Under the pieces are notes generated by a model. It was not told the DNA's origin. It saw only the letters and a list, made by a program, of their open reading frames with translations, and did no database searches. The position numbers were made by a program, and so were the translations under genes. Below, in pieces: positions 1-11,351 of a stretch of DNA of 11,775 nt. This DNA comes from Candidatus Desantisbacteria bacterium CG1_02_38_46 (GTDB taxonomy: Bacteria > Desantisbacteria > UBA1551 > UBA1559), in NCBI GenBank assembly GCA_001871015.1, contig MNUO01000006.1:1-11775 (forward strand), read 5' to 3'. Every line of letters begins with the position of its first letter. Position 1 is the first letter of the stretch.

Positions 1-646
1 CCCATGCCATAATAGTAATTTCTTCAGTAAGATTGAGACTATCTGAATGAAGAACTTCTACATAATTATTTGTTCCATTAAATTGCAAGGCACTGCCATA
101 TTTACCACTGACATATACAGGACCATTTTTTAGGGTTCCTGTATTATTATATCCAGAGGCATCAAGAGTAATTGAATTACCATCATCAAAGTTCCAAATG
201 CCTACTGCTCCCTGTTTATTGACTCCTCTCGTAATTGTATCATCCGCCGCGGCGGAGACAACTGCAACAATTGTATCCTGACCAGTATAATTTGAAACAA
301 TAGTGAAAGTGCATTTCCCGTTGGCATCAGTAGTCTGAGTTGAACCTGTATTAGGAGCGCCCCTGCTGTCATAAATTGTGTCAGAATTACCCCTCGTGTA
401 AAGAGTAACTATTTTCCCTGAGATGGGATAGCCGGATAAATCATTCACACATACTACTGCTGTCCCTGTAGAAGTCCCATTAGCATTTATCTGGTAAGGA
501 GAAAAGATAATATAGGATGAGTTCTTAGAAAAAGTTAAGTTATCTGATAAAAGGAGGTCAGGAGTTGAGGTTGGTCCATCTATAATTGTATTGGCAGAAG
601 TTTTGGTTGTAACTATCACTGTATAGGTATTAGCTGGCAGATGCAC
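1..646 (-). pseudogene. Downstream part of IS-split secreted LamG/Big_1-like protein (runs off window)
   Basis: This is the C-terminal part of a gene whose N-terminal part lies at 2036-2440. The frame is open from 646 to the window edge and continues beyond it. Visible modules, numbered on the rejoined protein, are a Thr/Ser-rich stretch (about 136-180), a bacterial Ig-like Big_1-type domain (about 180-268, with the GKIVTLYT and DANGKCTFTIVS style strands), and the start of a LamG/concanavalin-like domain (from about 284, with IWNFDDG, ALQFNG and NNYVEV motifs, cut at ITIMAW). LamG and Big_1 modules are typical of secreted or surface proteins that bind glycans or other macromolecules. An IS481-like element at 647-2035 separates this part from its signal peptide and ribosome binding site, so it is probably not expressed as an exported protein. 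An in-frame ATG at 662-664 inside the IS could allow low-level translation of a cytoplasmic fragment. The function of the intact protein is not known. Confidence 0.8.
641..646. repeat. Left copy of 6-bp target-site duplication (ATGCAC)
   Basis: ATGCAC directly abuts the left end of the IS at 647 and is repeated at 2036-2041 next to its right end. Joining the host sequences through a single copy gives a continuous reading frame (N W Q V H L P A N T), which is strong support for these boundaries. Confidence 0.85.
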
Positions 647-660
647 ATAGATCGTGCAGT
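647..660. repeat. Left terminal inverted repeat of IS481-like element
   Basis: ATAGATCGTGCAGT matches the opposite end at 2022-2035 (read on the minus strand) at 13 of 14 positions, with one G/C mismatch at position 4. It lies about 47 bp beyond the transposase stop codon. Confidence 0.8.
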
Positions 661-706
661 TCATTTGTTGCAATTTTTGCTCATTGAAAACTGGAAATAG
701 TCTATG

Positions 707-1948
707 TTAAAGGAACCTGTTATTGGGATCAAAAGGCACTGCTTTTTCTCTTAGTTTATAAGGAAAACTCTTTATCAATATCCTTGGAGAATCTTCACTT
801 TCCTGATAATAGATATTACAAACTTCCCTACCAGTATCAACAGTAACCCAGAGATAATCAGTAAATAGAGATTGATCAATAAAGAAATTTTCATTTAAGA
901 TGGAAATTTCTCCTTTTTCATCAACCTGACGGATAAAATGAATCTTTCCTTCTGTTAAGGGAAGTTCTTTAAGATGTTTGTCATATCCAAAAGGTAAAAC
1001 CTGTGATTCAATTTCTTCTAACTTTTTCTTGCTATTGGAATAAGCCTGGTATTCATTATGGCGGATTTCAAGTATCTTTGCTTCCCTGTGTAAAGAAGTG
1101 TGTGTCTCAAATTGATATTTTTGCCAGAGTTTCTTATCGAATAGAGAATTAAAGCTTTCAATGCTACCATTCATCCAGGGTTTCTCATCGGCAATAAAGA
1201 CGGGCTGTACACCAAGAAACAGGCAGAGGCGAACTACTTTACTGATGGAGCGTTTGTGTGTAAGACTGCCAGAAGCAGTGCAATGATTATCCATCTGCAG
1301 ATACACAGGAATTTTTAATCTCTGCCAGGCTTTAATAAAGAAGTCTACTACATACACGGCTAATTGTTCAGGATATTGCTCAAGGAAAACCTGGTGGTTC
1401 ACTATATCCTTCAAATGGTAAGAAAAGAAAGGTCCTCGACCCTTAATATAGCGAGGGCCAACTATATCCATTTGATGAGATTCGTTGACCTTTGTAGGCT
1501 TAAGCAACGGGTAGAACTTGTTAGATTTTCGGCGCCTCCTTTTATCAGGTTTAATGATTAAACCTTCTCGTTTGATAATATGGTTAATCCATCGCTCTTT
1601 GGGAATTTGCTCGTCTGAGTATTCCCGGTTATCAATCAACTCCTGACGCACGGCCCTTGCACCAAAAAACTTATATTTTGTTTCTTCTGTCTCGGCTCTG
1701 GACAAATCTTTACGGACTTCGATAACATCATTAATGACTTTATGGATATATCTTGTGTTAAGTTTCTTAGGTCTTTTGCTTTTATCTTTAAGGCCGGCAG
1801 TGCCATATAAACGATAGTTCTTCAGATGCTTAAAAAACCATCTCTCTGAACGTCTGAGCTTCTTGTAGATCTGAATTGGTTTTAATCCCTGGCTATATAG
1901 ATCCATTGCCCTAAGCCGTCTTAAATATTCCTTTTGGTTTTTACCCAT
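707..1948 (-). CDS. DDE (rve-type) transposase of the IS481-like element
   Basis: The 413-aa protein catalyses cut-and-paste or copy-out transposition of the surrounding element. Residues 1-65 form a helix-turn-helix region, with a second DNA-binding segment around 66-135. A basic patch (RRRRK near 137-141) precedes the RNase H-like catalytic core. The catalytic acids that can be seen are D161 (in HQMDIVGP), D220 (in LQMDNH) and E264 (in MNGSIESFN). The C-terminal part, about 330-413, is a small beta-rich domain as in many IS481-like enzymes. A longer frame could begin at 2005, but that start lies upstream of the -35 box. The ATG at 1948 follows a clear Shine-Dalgarno run (AGGAAGGGGGG, 4 nt spacing) and starts the HTH, so 1948 is preferred. 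No frameshift or missing catalytic residue is seen, so it is likely active. Confidence 0.9.
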   Translation of the reverse strand: MGKNQKEYLRRLRAMDLYSQGLKPIQIYKKLRRSERWFFKHLKNYRLYGTAGLKDKSKRPKKLNTRYIHKVINDVIEVRKDLSRAETEETKYKFFGARAVRQELIDNREYSDEQIPKERWINHIIKREGLIIKPDKRRRRKSNKFYPLLKPTKVNESHQMDIVGPRYIKGRGPFFSYHLKDIVNHQVFLEQYPEQLAVYVVDFFIKAWQRLKIPVYLQMDNHCTASGSLTHKRSISKVVRLCLFLGVQPVFIADEKPWMNGSIESFNSLFDKKLWQKYQFETHTSLHREAKILEIRHNEYQAYSNSKKKLEEIESQVLPFGYDKHLKELPLTEGKIHFIRQVDEKGEISILNENFFIDQSLFTDYLWVTVDTGREVCNIYYQESEDSPRILIKSFPYKLREKAVPFDPNNRFL

Positions 1949-1970
1949 AATACCCCCCTTCCTAAAGGAT

Positions 1971-1998
1971 ATTATGGACATATTTTCCAATTTGTCAA
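1971..1998 (-). promoter_or_regulatory. Promoter of the IS481-like transposase
   Basis: Read on the minus strand there is a perfect -35 box TTGACA (1993-1998), a 16-bp spacer and a -10 box CATAAT (1971-1976), followed 22 bp later by the ATG at 1948. It lies inside the element, so the transposase does not depend on the host gene's transcription. Confidence 0.7.
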
Positions 1999-2021
1999 GG
2001 AGCAAAGAATCTATAATTCAG

Positions 2022-2035
2022 ACTGCACGATGTAT
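2022..2035. repeat. Right terminal inverted repeat of IS481-like element
   Basis: Read on the minus strand this end is ATACATCGTGCAGT, 13 of 14 identical to the left end. The stop codon of the truncated host N-terminal fragment (TGA at 2018-2020) is supplied from just inside this end. Confidence 0.8.
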
Positions 2036-2041
2036 ATGCAC
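2036..2041. repeat. Right copy of 6-bp target-site duplication (ATGCAC)
   Basis: This is identical to 641-646 and lies immediately outside the right inverted repeat of the IS481-like element. Confidence 0.85.
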
Positions 2042-2445
2042 TTGCCAATTAGCAATTTGAGAAGCATTTTTGATATTTTCTAAGGTTATTATTTTAAAAA
2101 CAGTTGTATTATCTAATGTTAGAGAATCTGATTTTACTGTATAAATAATTGTGTCTTCATCAATAGAAATAGTTCCTGTGCCTATGCCTGATACAGTTCC
2201 AAGTGAAGGAGCATTTGTGCTGAAATTAAATCCCGGAGAGAACTTCATTGTAACTGTATTAATTGTATCTGCGGTTGCAGTTCTAAATATAATCTGATGA
2301 ACTACAGGTGTATCGTTGATTAACCTTGAAGTCATTGTATCAGCAACGTAAGGCAGAGTTGTCCCATAACCAATTCCACTAAAAAACAGGACTCCTAACC
2401 CCAAAATACAAATTAAACTCAACAAAATTTTTTTATACATTTTAA

Positions 2446-2697: not shown

Positions 2698-5600
2698 TTA
2701 CTCTTCCCAAACCTCAAGATTATCAAAATAAAGGGTAGAGGTGGGACTACCGGTACATCTTGCTCCACCTAAGACTACCTGCACAGGATTTTGATAATCA
2801 AAATTAGGGTAAGTGTTTACTACCTCCCAATCCAAACCATTCCAGCAGGAAAAGATAATATTATTTTCTTTGTCCCAATCAATCCTTATCTTTTTACCTT
2901 TATCAACCTCTGTAGAATCATCATGAAGTCTTCCTTTTTTATCTATATCTATAGCAAGCCGATATGCTCCTCCACCAAAAACTTGATTTCTTGTTCCCAG
3001 ACAGACCTGTGTTTTTCCCTGATCTGCCCAGAGATAAATTCCTCCTGAAGGTTCATTATAAGAAGTGGGTGACCAATCAAGATCACAAATTAAAGTTAAT
3101 GGCTTTTTAAAACTGAGTTTTGAATATAACTTGGGATAAACTCCAAATGCCTCTTTAGTATCAGGAAGATAAATTTCTAAACGATTATTTTTAATAGAAA
3201 TACAACCCTCAGAGTCTTCAACAATCCATTTATTTTTATCAAGAGAGGAAAGATTAAAATTATCTTCCATTACTTTTTTTCCTTTTATTTCTCGGGGGAG
3301 AAGAATTTTTTTAGATTCTGCTTCTATGGAAACGATTGGTTTTTCTTTTTGTTTGGGTTTTTTAGCAATTTCTTCTTTGCTTAAAAAAATCAAAGTATGG
3401 AGGTCGTAAATGTCTAAAGAAATCTCTAATTTTATTTCCTTAAGTTCTCCCGTGTCTTTTGTTCCTTTAAGTAAAACCTGATTATGAGCTAAATCTCTTA
3501 TTTCTCCTCCTTCTTTTAAGGAACGAGGAATTGTTAAGATAACTTTTTTTGGTTTTGCACTATCATTTAAAACTGCAAGCCTATCATCCCCAAACCATTT
3601 TACCCACAATCTTTCATCTTTATCACCTTCAATTATTCCATCAAAATCTTTTGGGGGAACAGCTGGTAAAGCCAGATAGCAACGAGAGAATGAACGCAAA
3701 ATAGCCTCATGTCCAAAACTTCCTCTTTCCCAGCTCTGTAATAAAATATAATAAGCATTGGCAGTACGAAGAGCATAAGTGATTGGTTCAAAAAAGTATC
3801 GTCCAGGAGGAGAAGTAGTTGCCGCACCCAAACAGTGAAGGGGAGCAAATTCACTTCCTGGAGCTTTGAGAGAGGCGGAGTGTTCTTCCCAGCAGGCAAA
3901 ATTTAAAGTAAGACCACTGCCCTCACCAGTTTTAAAAAGTTCAGCTACACCAGGAACATAATTAAATTTTTTATAAGCCCATGGATTGGTAACACGGCAA
4001 AGAGAATAGCGTCCCCAGGTAGGAGTGAAGAAAATGTCTAACCCAGTAAACATTCCCCGATTAATCACAATGCCTTTGTCCTTGGCAAAAAGACGGGGGT
4101 CATAACCATGAGAACGGAAAATTTCTAAAGGAGATTTACCTTCTGGCCATTCAATATTGATACTTGGAAGTTCAGGAAGGGAAGTTTCCACAAACAATTT
4201 TTTACCTTTCTCTGCCATTAAATCTCTTGCCTTTAACCAGAGTTTATGTATCTCCTGACAGCGCCAATCAAGCCATTTATCCCAGACGTTTTCTTTTAAC
4301 CAACCATAAGGATTTTCTTCAGGAACATCAATTCCGGTAGCTTCTTCAAATTGGGCAATATCCCATTTACTATAACCCAATTTTTCTGCCGGTGTTTTAC
4401 CAGAAGGGTCACCCCAATCCATTCCAGCATAACAAAATCCTTCTCTTCCACAAACATAAAAACCAATTTCTTCTACACAATCATAGGAAGAGTAATAATC
4501 TCTCATTTCCTTTAAAGTATCTAAAAATAATTTTTGCACCTCTGGTCTTAAAGGGTCAGGAAGAGACCACATACCAAAAACTTTTACTCTTTTTCCATCC
4601 TGGGTTACCTGAAAGGATTCTTCATCCCATCCGGGCAATAATTCCCCCGGGTCACCTTTTCCACTACATCCAGGATGAACCAAAGAAGCCATAAAAGGAA
4701 TTAGTTTAATTCCATATTTGCTGGCCAAAGAGAGAAACTGACTGCTTAAAGTTGGAGAACTGCGAAATATTTTTGAAGGATACCAGGCGCTTTGAGTACA
4801 AACCGGTCCCCCATCAATAGCAAAAAATCCTACAGTATTTAATCCACTTAATTTTAAATTTTCAAAATAAGTCTTTATTGCTGCTTCTCCATCCCGAAAA
4901 GCATCAATCATATAACGCTGAAATATATAAGGAGTATACATATAATATATCCCAATTTTTCTTTCTGGAAAGTTTTCTTTTACGGGAATATCTAAGGGTT
5001 TTGCTGAAGGTAAATCAATGATATCAAAAAGCCACATTTGGGAAATTGCTCCTCCAGATTTTTCAAATATTTCCTCTTCTAATAGTAAGTGAGAAACAGT
5101 AAATCTAATTGAGGAAAGACTGGGATAAAAAATAAAGGAAAAAATAAGGGGTTTGCCATCACAGGGATATTCTCTTCCAGTATAAATTCCCCCCCCCTCA
5201 AGAAAACTAAAGCTAGGAGAAATGCCCAGAGGGGGATGGCCCCTGACCACCGTATTTCGTTCAATATCATTGGGAATTTCTGCCATCAGGAGATGAGGTG
5301 TAGCAATTCGCTCTGTTCGCATTGTATAGGAAAAATAGGAAAGTTCCTTTCGGTTATCAGTAACCCGGTATTTTCTCCCGTTAATTTCTATTATTCTTGA
5401 CTTACCCCCTAAACCATTATTTTCACTAAAAGAATGATCTTCTTTTGCAGCATCTACATAATCTACTAATTTGCATCTGATAATATCCTCATTAAGGCCA
5501 TAAGATTTAATTCGATTAATTACTTTTTCATCTTTAAGATATTTACATTGTTCAGAAATAAGACTGGAAACATCACAGAAGAATATTCCATCTGTTCCTT

Positions 5601-6891
5601 TAATAGGAATATATGACTTCCCTTCATAAATTAAAAAATCATTTTTATCAATAGCCCAGGAATGAGTTTCTCCAAATTGGTCAGTAAATACCCCCTGGGT
5701 TAAATCTTTTGTTTTAGTAACTATCTCTGTTTTGGGAATAACTGGTTCCTTATTAAGAAATTTTAAACCTTCTTTTAATTCCAGTGCTTCTTGAGAATCA
5801 TAAAGATGACCTGCAATTTTTACACTTACATAATATTTTCCTGGTCTAAAAGAATTGACTGCAAGATGTGGAAGAAGAATGGAAAAAGGGCCAAGATTAA
5901 TAGTTTCTCCCACTTTCCATTTACTGGTAGGAGGTTGAGGATAAACAGTGGCAATTGGCTTTGGCTGGCGTACTCCTTCTCTTAATTTTATGGTAATTGG
6001 TAAATCTAAAGGAATTTCTTTGAGAGTTTTAAAAGAAAGGTTAAGGCTAAAAGTTTCCTCAGGAGAAATTTCTGGAGATACTTTGACCTTTTCAAGAATA
6101 ATTTCTTCTTTAAGTGGAAGAGGAATTTCTTTTTTACTCTCAGGCTTCTTTTTAACTTCAGTTTCCTTCTTCTCCTCCGCTATCTTCTTTATTTCACTAA
6201 CAGATACTCCTTGATATTCTCCCATTATCTCTTCCAGAGTTAATGCACGATTGTATATTTTCACTTCATCAATTATTCCTAAAAAATAATAAGAAAGTGG
6301 AGTCCCTTGGGCACCAATATGAAGAGAAGAATTTCCCAGAGTAATTTCACCGCTTACTTCTTTACTTTCTTTATCAAGTTTTCCATTTACATATAATTTT
6401 ACCAATTTTCCATCATAGGTAATTGCTAAATGGACCCATTCGTTATTTATTAGTTTGGTTTTTCCTTCTACGGGAATTAAATTACCATCTATACTTACAT
6501 AACCGTAAGCAATATTATTTAATGTGGTCTGTAAAATATAACCAAGTTTTTTATCTCTTGTAGAAACAATATGCTGAAGTCGACTATAATCAGAAGATTT
6601 AACCCAGGCCATTACACTAATATTTTCAGCAATATGTGGGCTTTCTATTTCCACATAAGCATTTTCTCCATTAAACTCAAGGGCATATCCCTTCTTGCCT
6701 TTCACCCACTCTGCTCCTATTATTTCTCCATCTAAATTGTTTCCACTTTTATCCTTAGCAATTTCTCCTTTTCCCTCATCAAAGTTCCAGTAGCCAATTA
6801 ATCCCTTTTCTTTTGCATTTGTATCCACAGAAAGGAATAACCCCGCTATCACCAAAAAAATTAACCAATTACCAATTCCCGGCATCCTCAT
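2698..6891 (-). CDS. Large secreted modular protein: LamG + TIM-barrel glycosidase-like core + C-terminal beta-sandwich
   Basis: The 1397-aa protein is probably exported and binds, and may cleave, a polysaccharide. Modules in order: signal peptide about 1-26 (hydrophobic 9-20, likely cleavage after TNA); LamG/concanavalin-like domain about 30-220 (YWNFDEG, ALEFNG, AYVEIES, GIIDEVKIYNRAL); charged Lys/Glu linker 230-268; Ig/FN3-like beta region about 270-370; beta-rich region about 395-640; TIM-barrel-like region about 645-1080; beta-sandwich about 1085-1170, as often follows a barrel in glycosidases; Lys/Pro linker 1175-1190; C-terminal LamG/GH16-like sandwich about 1205-1395. Barrel-like features include GLNTVGFFAIDGG (684-696), GREG (815-818) and LFVETSLPE (899-907); E817 and E902 are candidate catalytic acids, which is inference only. 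I cannot assign a GH family. An SD (AAGGAGGAG, 6894-6902) overlaps the stop of the upstream gene. ATG 6891 and an ATG two codons later are both plausible starts. A G9 tract sits near residue 567. Confidence 0.8.
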   Translation of the reverse strand: MRMPGIGNWLIFLVIAGLFLSVDTNAKEKGLIGYWNFDEGKGEIAKDKSGNNLDGEIIGAEWVKGKKGYALEFNGENAYVEIESPHIAENISVMAWVKSSDYSRLQHIVSTRDKKLGYILQTTLNNIAYGYVSIDGNLIPVEGKTKLINNEWVHLAITYDGKLVKLYVNGKLDKESKEVSGEITLGNSSLHIGAQGTPLSYYFLGIIDEVKIYNRALTLEEIMGEYQGVSVSEIKKIAEEKKETEVKKKPESKKEIPLPLKEEIILEKVKVSPEISPEETFSLNLSFKTLKEIPLDLPITIKLREGVRQPKPIATVYPQPPTSKWKVGETINLGPFSILLPHLAVNSFRPGKYYVSVKIAGHLYDSQEALELKEGLKFLNKEPVIPKTEIVTKTKDLTQGVFTDQFGETHSWAIDKNDFLIYEGKSYIPIKGTDGIFFCDVSSLISEQCKYLKDEKVINRIKSYGLNEDIIRCKLVDYVDAAKEDHSFSENNGLGGKSRIIEINGRKYRVTDNRKELSYFSYTMRTERIATPHLLMAEIPNDIERNTVVRGHPPLGISPSFSFLEGGGIYTGREYPCDGKPLIFSFIFYPSLSSIRFTVSHLLLEEEIFEKSGGAISQMWLFDIIDLPSAKPLDIPVKENFPERKIGIYYMYTPYIFQRYMIDAFRDGEAAIKTYFENLKLSGLNTVGFFAIDGGPVCTQSAWYPSKIFRSSPTLSSQFLSLASKYGIKLIPFMASLVHPGCSGKGDPGELLPGWDEESFQVTQDGKRVKVFGMWSLPDPLRPEVQKLFLDTLKEMRDYYSSYDCVEEIGFYVCGREGFCYAGMDWGDPSGKTPAEKLGYSKWDIAQFEEATGIDVPEENPYGWLKENVWDKWLDWRCQEIHKLWLKARDLMAEKGKKLFVETSLPELPSINIEWPEGKSPLEIFRSHGYDPRLFAKDKGIVINRGMFTGLDIFFTPTWGRYSLCRVTNPWAYKKFNYVPGVAELFKTGEGSGLTLNFACWEEHSASLKAPGSEFAPLHCLGAATTSPPGRYFFEPITYALRTANAYYILLQSWERGSFGHEAILRSFSRCYLALPAVPPKDFDGIIEGDKDERLWVKWFGDDRLAVLNDSAKPKKVILTIPRSLKEGGEIRDLAHNQVLLKGTKDTGELKEIKLEISLDIYDLHTLIFLSKEEIAKKPKQKEKPIVSIEAESKKILLPREIKGKKVMEDNFNLSSLDKNKWIVEDSEGCISIKNNRLEIYLPDTKEAFGVYPKLYSKLSFKKPLTLICDLDWSPTSYNEPSGGIYLWADQGKTQVCLGTRNQVFGGGAYRLAIDIDKKGRLHDDSTEVDKGKKIRIDWDKENNIIFSCWNGLDWEVVNTYPNFDYQNPVQVVLGGARCTGSPTSTLYFDNLEVWEE
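5189..5197 (-). repeat. Nine-base G homopolymer inside the large LamG gene
   Basis: Nine consecutive C on the plus strand (G9 on the coding strand) encode part of LEGGGIY near residue 567 of the 1397-aa protein. A change of one base would shift the frame and remove the barrel and C-terminal modules. It is the longest G/C run in an otherwise AT-rich window. Confidence 0.8.
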
Positions 6892-9068: not shown

Positions 9069-11312
9069 CTAAAACTTGACATTATTAGTTTCCATTCCTT
9101 CCACCCACATCCAGATCCGCTGACCATCTAACGTATGAAGATTGCTGGCATTAAATTTCGTACACCCATATTCTACAGTCTTCTGTAAATCAGGTTCGTC
9201 ATATGAATGCAATGTCACATCTATCCGCCTCTTTCTTACCTTAACATATCCGTCCTGGTGATAAAACGCCCTCATCATTGATTCCATAGTATAGGAATGA
9301 TATTCCTGGGGAAAATACTGCCTTTTTACATAATGGGAAAGATTGGTTAATAATATTTTGAAGTTGCTCATAATATAATCTTTCTCTGTTCTTATTTCGT
9401 AGAGCACTTCCTCAAGATTTAAGGTAGCAAGTTCTCTTTGCCTGCTTTCTCTTGTTGAAATCAATCCCTTAAGATACTGCTCCTTATTTCTTAATTTCTG
9501 CTCTAAGATAGATAAATGTTTTGGATACTCTTCACTTAATTTAACTAATTTTTCTTCTGTAAGTTTAAGATTTCTTAAAAGTTCTTGCCTCTTTTCTACG
9601 TTGTTAATTCGGGAAAGAGAGAGATAAAGTTCGCGACTTTCTTTCTTCAACAATTCCTTGTGGCTCTGGTATATTTCTTCTAAAGTCTGGAGTTCTTTTT
9701 TCACCTTTTCTACTTCTCTTGTGGCCACATTAATATTTCTTGTTAGTCCGCGCAAGTTCTCCTCTATCTCTTCTTTCTTGCGCAGGATAACGCGGTTTTC
9801 TACCTCTCTCTTTTTATAGCCATGATTGCTATCAAATTTTATTGCAGACATCATATCCTTAAAAATATTCTCCTGGTTGGGCCAGCGGTCAAAATATCTC
9901 TTTGCTATTCTTGCAATATCCTGTTCTTCTTTTTTTCTTAGGTTGGTAATAATAGGAATAAGTTTTTCTCTACCTTCTATTTGTTTCTTTACCAGTGCCA
10001 CCCTTACCGCATACTTCCTTTTTTCTTTGCGGTCTTTTAATTCATAGCTGGCCTCGGCCACCCATGCTAATACCTTTTTTATGTGGCCTTCCTTATCCTT
10101 TTCCACCTTTAAAGGCTTAAAATCTTCTTTGAGGTCAAAACTTTCTATTCCCTTATACTGATTATCCCGCAAGAGGGTAATAAAATATTTCTTGCGACTG
10201 TCAAATTCTTCAAATATTTTCAAGGAGAGACCTTCCCGGTCAAAGATGACCGCCTTCATTATTCTTTTTCCTATGGCATTCTCAAAAGCATCAATGAGAT
10301 TGAACATTATCCCGGGCAGTCTTGAATCCCCGGGGCAAGTCAGAAGTATGAGAGGATTTCCTTTAGAAGAGTGGATAAAAAATTGGTGCAGTCCCCTTTC
10401 TGCTCGCTTAAGGGTAGTGAAAAATACCCTGGGAATATTTTTGCTACTCCAGACATGCTTGGCATGACCATCGATGTAAAAATAACTTCCATCTTCAAGT
10501 TCTATTTCAATACACAGGGTTTCTATGTAACATTGGGCTAAGGCTTCACTCATTATTTTCGGTATAGGCAATTTATCAATTTCACAGAGAAACTTATCAA
10601 GGGTATTATAGCTGTACCTCGTACCTGAACCTGTCAATATTCCCAGCCCCCGCTTGTGATACTTCAATAGGTGATATGGCCTTTCCATCCCAAACATAGG
10701 AAGGTAAAGCAGGCTTTGCACCTTCTTCCTGATTGTCTGGGGCGAAGAATGCAACACCTTCCACGAAGGGACTGTCTCTGCTTTACTCAAATATTCATCC
10801 AGACCTTTTAAAATTATTTCTGTTATTGTCTTTACTCCTTCCATGTCACTATCTGCACCCTTTAGAAAATATACTCCTGCATGATCTACAGCTATACCTT
10901 TCTGGTAATCTATCTTCTCTTTTCGGGGCCTGCCACGAAAAAACTTCTGCCCCAACTGTCTTATTATCTGTGTCAGCCACACCCGACTTAAAACTTGTCC
11001 AAATCGGTGTTTGAGAAGTTCGTTCAATTCCCGAGAATTTATTTCTGGGCGGGATTCTTTTTGGACCTTGATGAATTCTATTACTTCATGCGTTGCCTTG
11101 CGTCTCTTCCCTCCACGGCGATGGTCCAGTAAGGCAGCAAATCCTTCTCTTTGGTAGCGTTTTTTTAAACTCCACCACTGGGTCCGGCTCAGCTTGAAAA
11201 GGGATTTTCTCATTATCTGGGATAGTTTTTTTCCTTTTATCCATCGCTGGATTATTTTCTCTTTCTCCCTGGCCTTTTTGAATTGCGATAATCGGTATTG
11301 TGGCTCTTTCAT
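9069..11312 (-). CDS. Large DDE transposase with coiled-coil insertion (747 aa)
   Basis: This is the transposase of the surrounding 2411-bp IS. Residues about 1-125 form paired helix-turn-helix DNA-binding regions (with SRTQWWSLKKRYQREG near 42-57, then a second HTH with LTQIIRQLG). A basic patch (FFRGRPRKEK, 124-133) leads into the RNase H-like core. Candidate catalytic acids are D281 (YFYIDGHAKHVW), D358 (AVIFDREGLS) and E481 (WPNQENIFKDMM). A Lys/Glu-rich coiled coil spans about 505-625, and a small C-terminal domain (660-747) contains IDVTLHSYDEP and LDGQRIWMWVEG. A longer frame could start with TTG at 11351, but that TTG is the first half of the -35 box TTGACA and cannot be in the transcript; ATG 11312 is chosen. 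No SD precedes it, and only about four nucleotides of leader are expected. Intact and probably active. Confidence 0.88.
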   Translation of the reverse strand: MKEPQYRLSQFKKAREKEKIIQRWIKGKKLSQIMRKSLFKLSRTQWWSLKKRYQREGFAALLDHRRGGKRRKATHEVIEFIKVQKESRPEINSRELNELLKHRFGQVLSRVWLTQIIRQLGQKFFRGRPRKEKIDYQKGIAVDHAGVYFLKGADSDMEGVKTITEIILKGLDEYLSKAETVPSWKVLHSSPQTIRKKVQSLLYLPMFGMERPYHLLKYHKRGLGILTGSGTRYSYNTLDKFLCEIDKLPIPKIMSEALAQCYIETLCIEIELEDGSYFYIDGHAKHVWSSKNIPRVFFTTLKRAERGLHQFFIHSSKGNPLILLTCPGDSRLPGIMFNLIDAFENAIGKRIMKAVIFDREGLSLKIFEEFDSRKKYFITLLRDNQYKGIESFDLKEDFKPLKVEKDKEGHIKKVLAWVAEASYELKDRKEKRKYAVRVALVKKQIEGREKLIPIITNLRKKEEQDIARIAKRYFDRWPNQENIFKDMMSAIKFDSNHGYKKREVENRVILRKKEEIEENLRGLTRNINVATREVEKVKKELQTLEEIYQSHKELLKKESRELYLSLSRINNVEKRQELLRNLKLTEEKLVKLSEEYPKHLSILEQKLRNKEQYLKGLISTRESRQRELATLNLEEVLYEIRTEKDYIMSNFKILLTNLSHYVKRQYFPQEYHSYTMESMMRAFYHQDGYVKVRKRRIDVTLHSYDEPDLQKTVEYGCTKFNASNLHTLDGQRIWMWVEGMETNNVKF

Positions 11313-11322
11313 TCTGCCATAT

Positions 11323-11351
11323 AGTATAGCACAAAAAACCAAAAATGTCAA
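11323..11351 (-). promoter_or_regulatory. Promoter of the large-IS transposase
   Basis: Read on the minus strand there is TTGACA (11346-11351), a 17-bp spacer and TATACT (11323-11328) with an extended -10 TGC. The -10 box is only ten bases from the ATG at 11312, so the mRNA should be nearly leaderless. The twelve bases TGCTATACTATA are identical to those at the operon promoter near 8979-8990. Confidence 0.78.

Follow-up and report, generated by a model that had tools for sequence, protein, structure and literature searches.

The question raised by this locus is where an insertion sequence lying within a secreted-protein gene begins and ends, and what that gene looked like before it was interrupted. 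The window analysed here is the entire contig C88 (MNUO01000006.1, 11,775 nt) of Candidatus Desantisbacteria bacterium CG1_02_38_46 (GCA_001871015.1), whose genome of 1.73 Mb is a fragmented assembly of 133 contigs. It had originally been predicted that an IS481-like insertion occupies positions 647 to 2035, is flanked by a target duplication ATGCAC, and splits a secreted LamG gene. The splitting of the gene was confirmed, but the boundaries were not: the element is almost certainly a 1413-bp insertion sequence at 635-2047 (minus strand, by the orientation of its transposase), with TGGCA...TGCCA ends and the target-site duplication ATTAGC, which transposed into the secreted-protein gene. These coordinates were obtained by comparing the ends of several copies and by a blind end search.

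The hexamer ATGCAC is indeed present at 641-646 and 2036-2041, and just inside it the motif ATA(G/C)ATCGTGCAGT occurs in the window only at 647-660 and, inverted, at 2022-2035, where 0 occurrences were expected by chance. From 647 and 2035, the inverted repeat extends outward through ATGCAC as far as 635 and 2047. The terminal inverted repeats are thus 26 bp long, with 22 of 26 positions matching (85%): TGGCAGATGCACATAGATCGTGCAGT on the left (635-660, + strand), which contains the ATGCAC at 641-646, and TGGCAAGTGCATATACATCGTGCAGT on the right (2022-2047, - strand), which contains the one at 2036-2041 as read on the + strand. ATGCAC is nearly its own reverse complement (GTGCAT), and part of an inverted repeat can therefore mimic a direct repeat. 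The repeat structure and the sister copies described below put each true end 12 bases further outward, with the two copies of ATTAGC directly outside the terminal repeats at 629-634 and 2048-2053. A further, inner (subterminal) inverted repeat with 77% identity lies at 676-697 (+) and 1985-2006 (-) and is found in the sister copies too; its right arm overlaps a promoter-like sequence, TTGACA-N18-TAATAT, read by eye at 1998-1969, and the pair may be a second contact site for the transposase.

Two sister insertions were found in unrelated genes of the same genome, each spread across two contigs (C72 with C81, and C6 with C42) that we joined through their matching flanks. They share 77-80% nucleotide identity with the window element and do not differ from one another in the assembled ends (236/236 and 235/235 positions identical). 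The window element and both sister copies terminate in precisely the 20-bp sequences TGGCAGATGCACATAGATCG and TGGCAAGTGCATATACATCG, one on each side, and because these same ends, ATGCAC included, stand unchanged at sister insertions in other genes, ATGCAC belongs to the element and is not its target duplication. The 6-bp duplications of the sister copies, AATATG at C72/C81 and GATACT at C6/C42, lie directly outside TGGCA/TGCCA, and a fourth, distant copy (C91:1332-2721), whose transposase is 33% identical to that of the window, has the ends TGACAAGTATACATACATCG and TAACAAATATATAGACATCG (TGACA/TAACA) and the duplication CCTGAC. Deleting the element together with one 6-bp duplication gives an uninterrupted frame at 4/4 sites: ...IKNASQIAN/TYTVIVTT... 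in the window, ...QKELIEYALKIKEKDPKFYLVHGE... at C72/C81, where the product is beta-CASP metallo-hydrolase-like, ...LSQYHLIDYHNG... at C6/C42, where the restored frame is long, and ...LGYALAVRNWPVSM... at C91. At the three sites outside the window, annotation would give split ORFs (the beta-CASP-like gene and two others). Between the window element and the sisters (L020/L021) the outer 20 bp are the same and a parallel change is seen just inside both ends, at window positions 655-662 and 2020-2027, with TGCAGT in the window and GTTACC/GTAACC in the sisters; this suggests that the inner repeat may change together with transposase specificity. The lack of differences between the two sister copies speaks for the sister element having been active recently; the window copy is a single one.

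The blind search looked for pairs of TG/TA ends that are similar in inverted orientation and lie between exact repeats, and the window gave 635-2047 with a 6-bp duplication at a score of 29.2, compared with a best score of 23.2 in 300 shuffles. Applied to relatives, the search returned elements of 1410 bp with the duplication ACCAAC (L045, where this solution ranked second, behind a repeat in an AT-rich flank), 1404 bp with ACTGCT and a perfect 24-bp inverted repeat (L050), and 1392 bp with GATAAG (L061). An ACATCG/ACATAG core is positioned 14-15 bases from the end in all three, and the window core matches this spacing only with the corrected ends. The search admits TG/TA termini only and hence could never yield 647/2035; the multi-copy evidence is independent of it.

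The transposase is encoded at 707-1948 on the minus strand (413 aa from an ATG, or 432 aa from a TTG at 2005) and consists of a helix-turn-helix region (HTH_23/HTH_29) followed by a weak rve_3 match. Its DDE core was assigned by alignment to D161, D220 and E264, which are conserved in all relatives aligned, and the 43 residues between D220 and E264 are matched by equal spacing in the C91 copy. The best curated model is IS481 (NF033577), at 69.1 bits (E 4.2e-19) against a cut-off of 224 bits; IS481 is likewise the best model for all of the relatives, which score 118-124 bits, and a bona fide IS481 transposase (L067), which is 20% identical to the window protein, scores 283 bits. Judged on these matches the window protein is divergent and is best called an IS481-like DDE enzyme. 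It resembles IS481 in carrying HTH and then DDE in one ORF, with QMD/DN/NG..E motifs, and the window element and its sisters resemble IS481 in their TG...CA ends (TGGCA...TGCCA); the four copies have 6-bp duplications (ATTAGC, AATATG, GATACT and CCTGAC), and 6 bp is the commonest target duplication length in IS481 (PMC10045372). The window element differs from IS481 in its combination of 1413 bp with a 413 aa transposase, and in having D instead of K at position E+7, counted from the catalytic E. No relative of known structure was found by sequence search.

An alternative placement, which we regard as improbable, is that the element belongs to the IS1202 family, as an ISAjo2-like member, and not to the IS481 group. 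Members of that family measure 1.3-1.7 kb, have imperfect inverted repeats of 23-28 bp and, in ISAjo2 types, make short duplications (PMC10132070), so that the window element does resemble them in size, in the length of its transposase, in having imperfect inverted repeats (about 25 bp) and in its short duplications; relatives of the window element also carry repeated inner binding-site-like motifs, like ISAjo2, and their 3+2 arrays may correspond to the extra inner motif copies of ISAjo2, ISAba32 and IS1202. The window element itself has no second copy of the inner part of its terminal repeat of the IS1202 type, its inner repeat being a different one. The ISNCY_2 model NF033594, on which ISAjo2 scores 492 bits, does not match the window transposase at E thresholds of 1 and 0.001, and the two proteins are only about 15% identical. 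The family signature is a Q seven residues beyond the catalytic E (PMC10132070), and in one and the same alignment this residue is Q in ISAjo2 (L065) but D271 in the window protein. The outer ends also differ (TGG...CCA in the window against TGT...ACA), and the insertions lie inside genes, with no dif-like target noticed at the insertion sites. IS1202 membership was rejected after this comparison with ISAjo2. The window also encodes an unrelated, single-copy transposase-like protein of 760 aa (9069-11351, minus strand), in which an IS630-like HTH is accompanied by a long charged insertion and which scores 35 bits on the IS630 model against a cut-off of 100.

With the element placed as IS481-like at 635-2047, the sequences on either side can be read as one gene. 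Its 5' part (2054-2440, minus strand) encodes a signal-peptide-like N-terminus and a first domain (MYKKILLSL...NIKNAS), and its frame reads through the duplication into the element and soon stops. Its 3' part (1-628, minus strand) encodes a Big_1-like domain, with a match of 4e-8 that falls just below the cut-off of the model, and the start of LamG; it has no native start and runs off the contig end. That a single gene never existed, the two ORFs being unrelated or the contig a chimera, is very improbable: the fragmented assembly lends the idea some plausibility, but an exact 6-bp duplication flanks complete element ends, and a single uninterrupted homologue spans both halves. This homologue (G001:C112, L034) shows about 31% identity over the stretch that begins with the signal peptide and ends with the Big_1 linker, and is homologous to the 5' part over its entire length, in agreement with the original proposal that both ORFs derive from one secreted-protein gene, a Big_1/LamG gene on the minus strand. 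It comes from the other of the two genomes that represent the host phylum in the collection, source genome included; no empty allele of the interrupted gene was seen among these 2 genomes, since there are so few host relatives. Paralogues on C114 and C90 cover the Big_1/LamG part only and therefore cannot test the junction. Directly upstream of the interrupted gene is a 1397 aa LamG-containing secreted protein (2698-6891, minus strand), and the intergenic region at 2465-2580, also upstream of the interrupted gene, is strongly structured, with nested hairpins (DNA fold z -5.1), no match in Rfam and a single 42-bp relative on contig C89 of the genome.

The junction itself distinguishes the two sets of ends. 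Deleting 647-2035 and one ATGCAC does give one open frame, as had been claimed, and the wrong excision stays in frame only because it removes 1395 nt, 24 nt less than the correct 1419 nt. The protein restored in this way, ...NWQ/VHLPANT..., nevertheless contains 8 residues that are absent from the homologue, the segment WQVHLPAN being translated inverted repeat; the correct junction is ...NASQIAN/TYTVIVTT.... Aligned to G001:C112, the corrected rejoin is free of gaps across the junction (LENIKNASQIANTYTVIVTTKTSANTIIDGPT / LGNITNAAVCAATYTIRVATRTPEDTVINDPT) at 77.0 bits, compared with 70.1 bits and an 8-residue gap at the junction for the original rejoin, the placement of this gap having some slack since the homologue is only about 31% identical. 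A second homologue (L036) gives 53.1 bits and a junction gap of one residue with the corrected rejoin, against 50.8 bits and nine residues with the original one. Extra sequence at the junction, which had been named beforehand as grounds for rejecting the proposal, is thus found in the originally proposed rejoin itself, as 8 residues relative to G001:C112. That the element runs from 647 to 2035 with ATGCAC as its duplication and ...NWQVHLPANT... as the restored protein has a negligible probability. ATGCAC is an exact repeat on either side of a 13/14 inverted repeat, and the frame stays open once it is removed, but the sister copies have the same ATGCAC and the same six bases beyond it at both ends, and true 6-bp duplications lie outside TGGCA/TGCCA-type ends at all four sites; the comparison with the sister copies refutes those ends. 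The description of the insertion as exactly reversible holds as arithmetic on the sequence, not as evidence of precise excision in the cell.

A genome-wide scan with the single window transposase found no relatives, a scan of viral contigs likewise found none, and plasmid records held no close relatives, only distant ones at 20-26% identity. A scan with a two-protein alignment found 25 relatives at about 27-40% identity, in Desulfobacterota, Omnitrophota, Atribacteria, Phycisphaerae and others, and relatives in several phyla have an element size like that of the window element (1390-1410 bp) and 6-bp duplications (L045, L050 and L061). Many of them carry direct copies of a 19-bp TGCCAGGACATCGATAACC-like motif, typically two or three of them next to the transposase start and two at the opposite end; such arrays, which recall the end arrays of Tn7/Mu-type elements, were found at L019:1332-2721, L040, L043-L046, L050, L051, L054, L056 and L060-L062. 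The window element has one 19-bp motif per end and no array.

At ten relative loci two ORFs make up the transposase, ORF1 bearing the HTH and ORF2, in the +1 frame, the DDE core; they overlap at the same place, a conserved run of eight A (GTTAAAAAAAAC-like). The same A8 stands at the start of ORF2 in L053, and the element L080 carries it as well, the A8 loci being L044, L046, L048, L051, L052, L053, L054, L056, L060, L061, L062 and L080. In the GTTAAAAAAAAC examples a TAA closes the ORF2 frame just before the A run. Judging from this arrangement, the A8 run is a probable site of programmed transcriptional slippage or frameshifting in the relatives; the window transposase has no A8 run and lies in one frame. 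A transposase in two frames joined at 8-9 A recalls the IS3 family, where +1 transcriptional slippage has been described for IS1447 (PMC6211511). This likeness concerns the relatives only, and they differ from the IS3 family in their weak match to the IS3 model (25-49 bits vs 160). A limited literature search found no report of slippage in IS481-like elements, which carries little weight. A tentative reading, which we consider possible but would not bet on as a whole, is that these elements form an undescribed clade beside IS481 in Desulfobacterota, Omnitrophota, Atribacteria, Planctomycetota and the host candidate phylum, with Tn7/Mu-like arrays of the 19-bp end motif (typically three where the transposase starts and two at the opposite end) and, in many members, a transposase made by slippage at the conserved A8 run that joins an HTH-only ORF1 to a DDE ORF2; in such a clade the window element, with its single frame and single site, would be a derived member.

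For the insertion in the window we infer an ordinary course of transposition, in which the transposase would bind the 26-bp terminal repeats and pair the element ends, the ends would be joined to both target strands with a 6-base stagger, and gap repair would duplicate ATTAGC on each side. The insertion falls in the codons of a minus-strand gene for a secreted protein with a signal peptide, an N-terminal domain, Big_1 and LamG, and the interrupted gene would presumably have lost its function. The corrected excision predicts the empty site ...AGGTATTAGCAATTTG... (+ strand), not one that retains TGGCAGATGCAC.

The insertion is therefore real, the boundaries first given for it are wrong, and the event is an ordinary transposition in a little-described corner of a known family. 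The true ends of the element are now fixed. They expose a trap, in that a near-palindrome (ATGCAC/GTGCAT) within a terminal inverted repeat passes for a target duplication, and boundaries are proved not by a 'restored' gene that stays in frame but by the comparison of several copies. The relatives are suggestive of a broader IS481-like clade that has arrayed ends and, probably, slippage.
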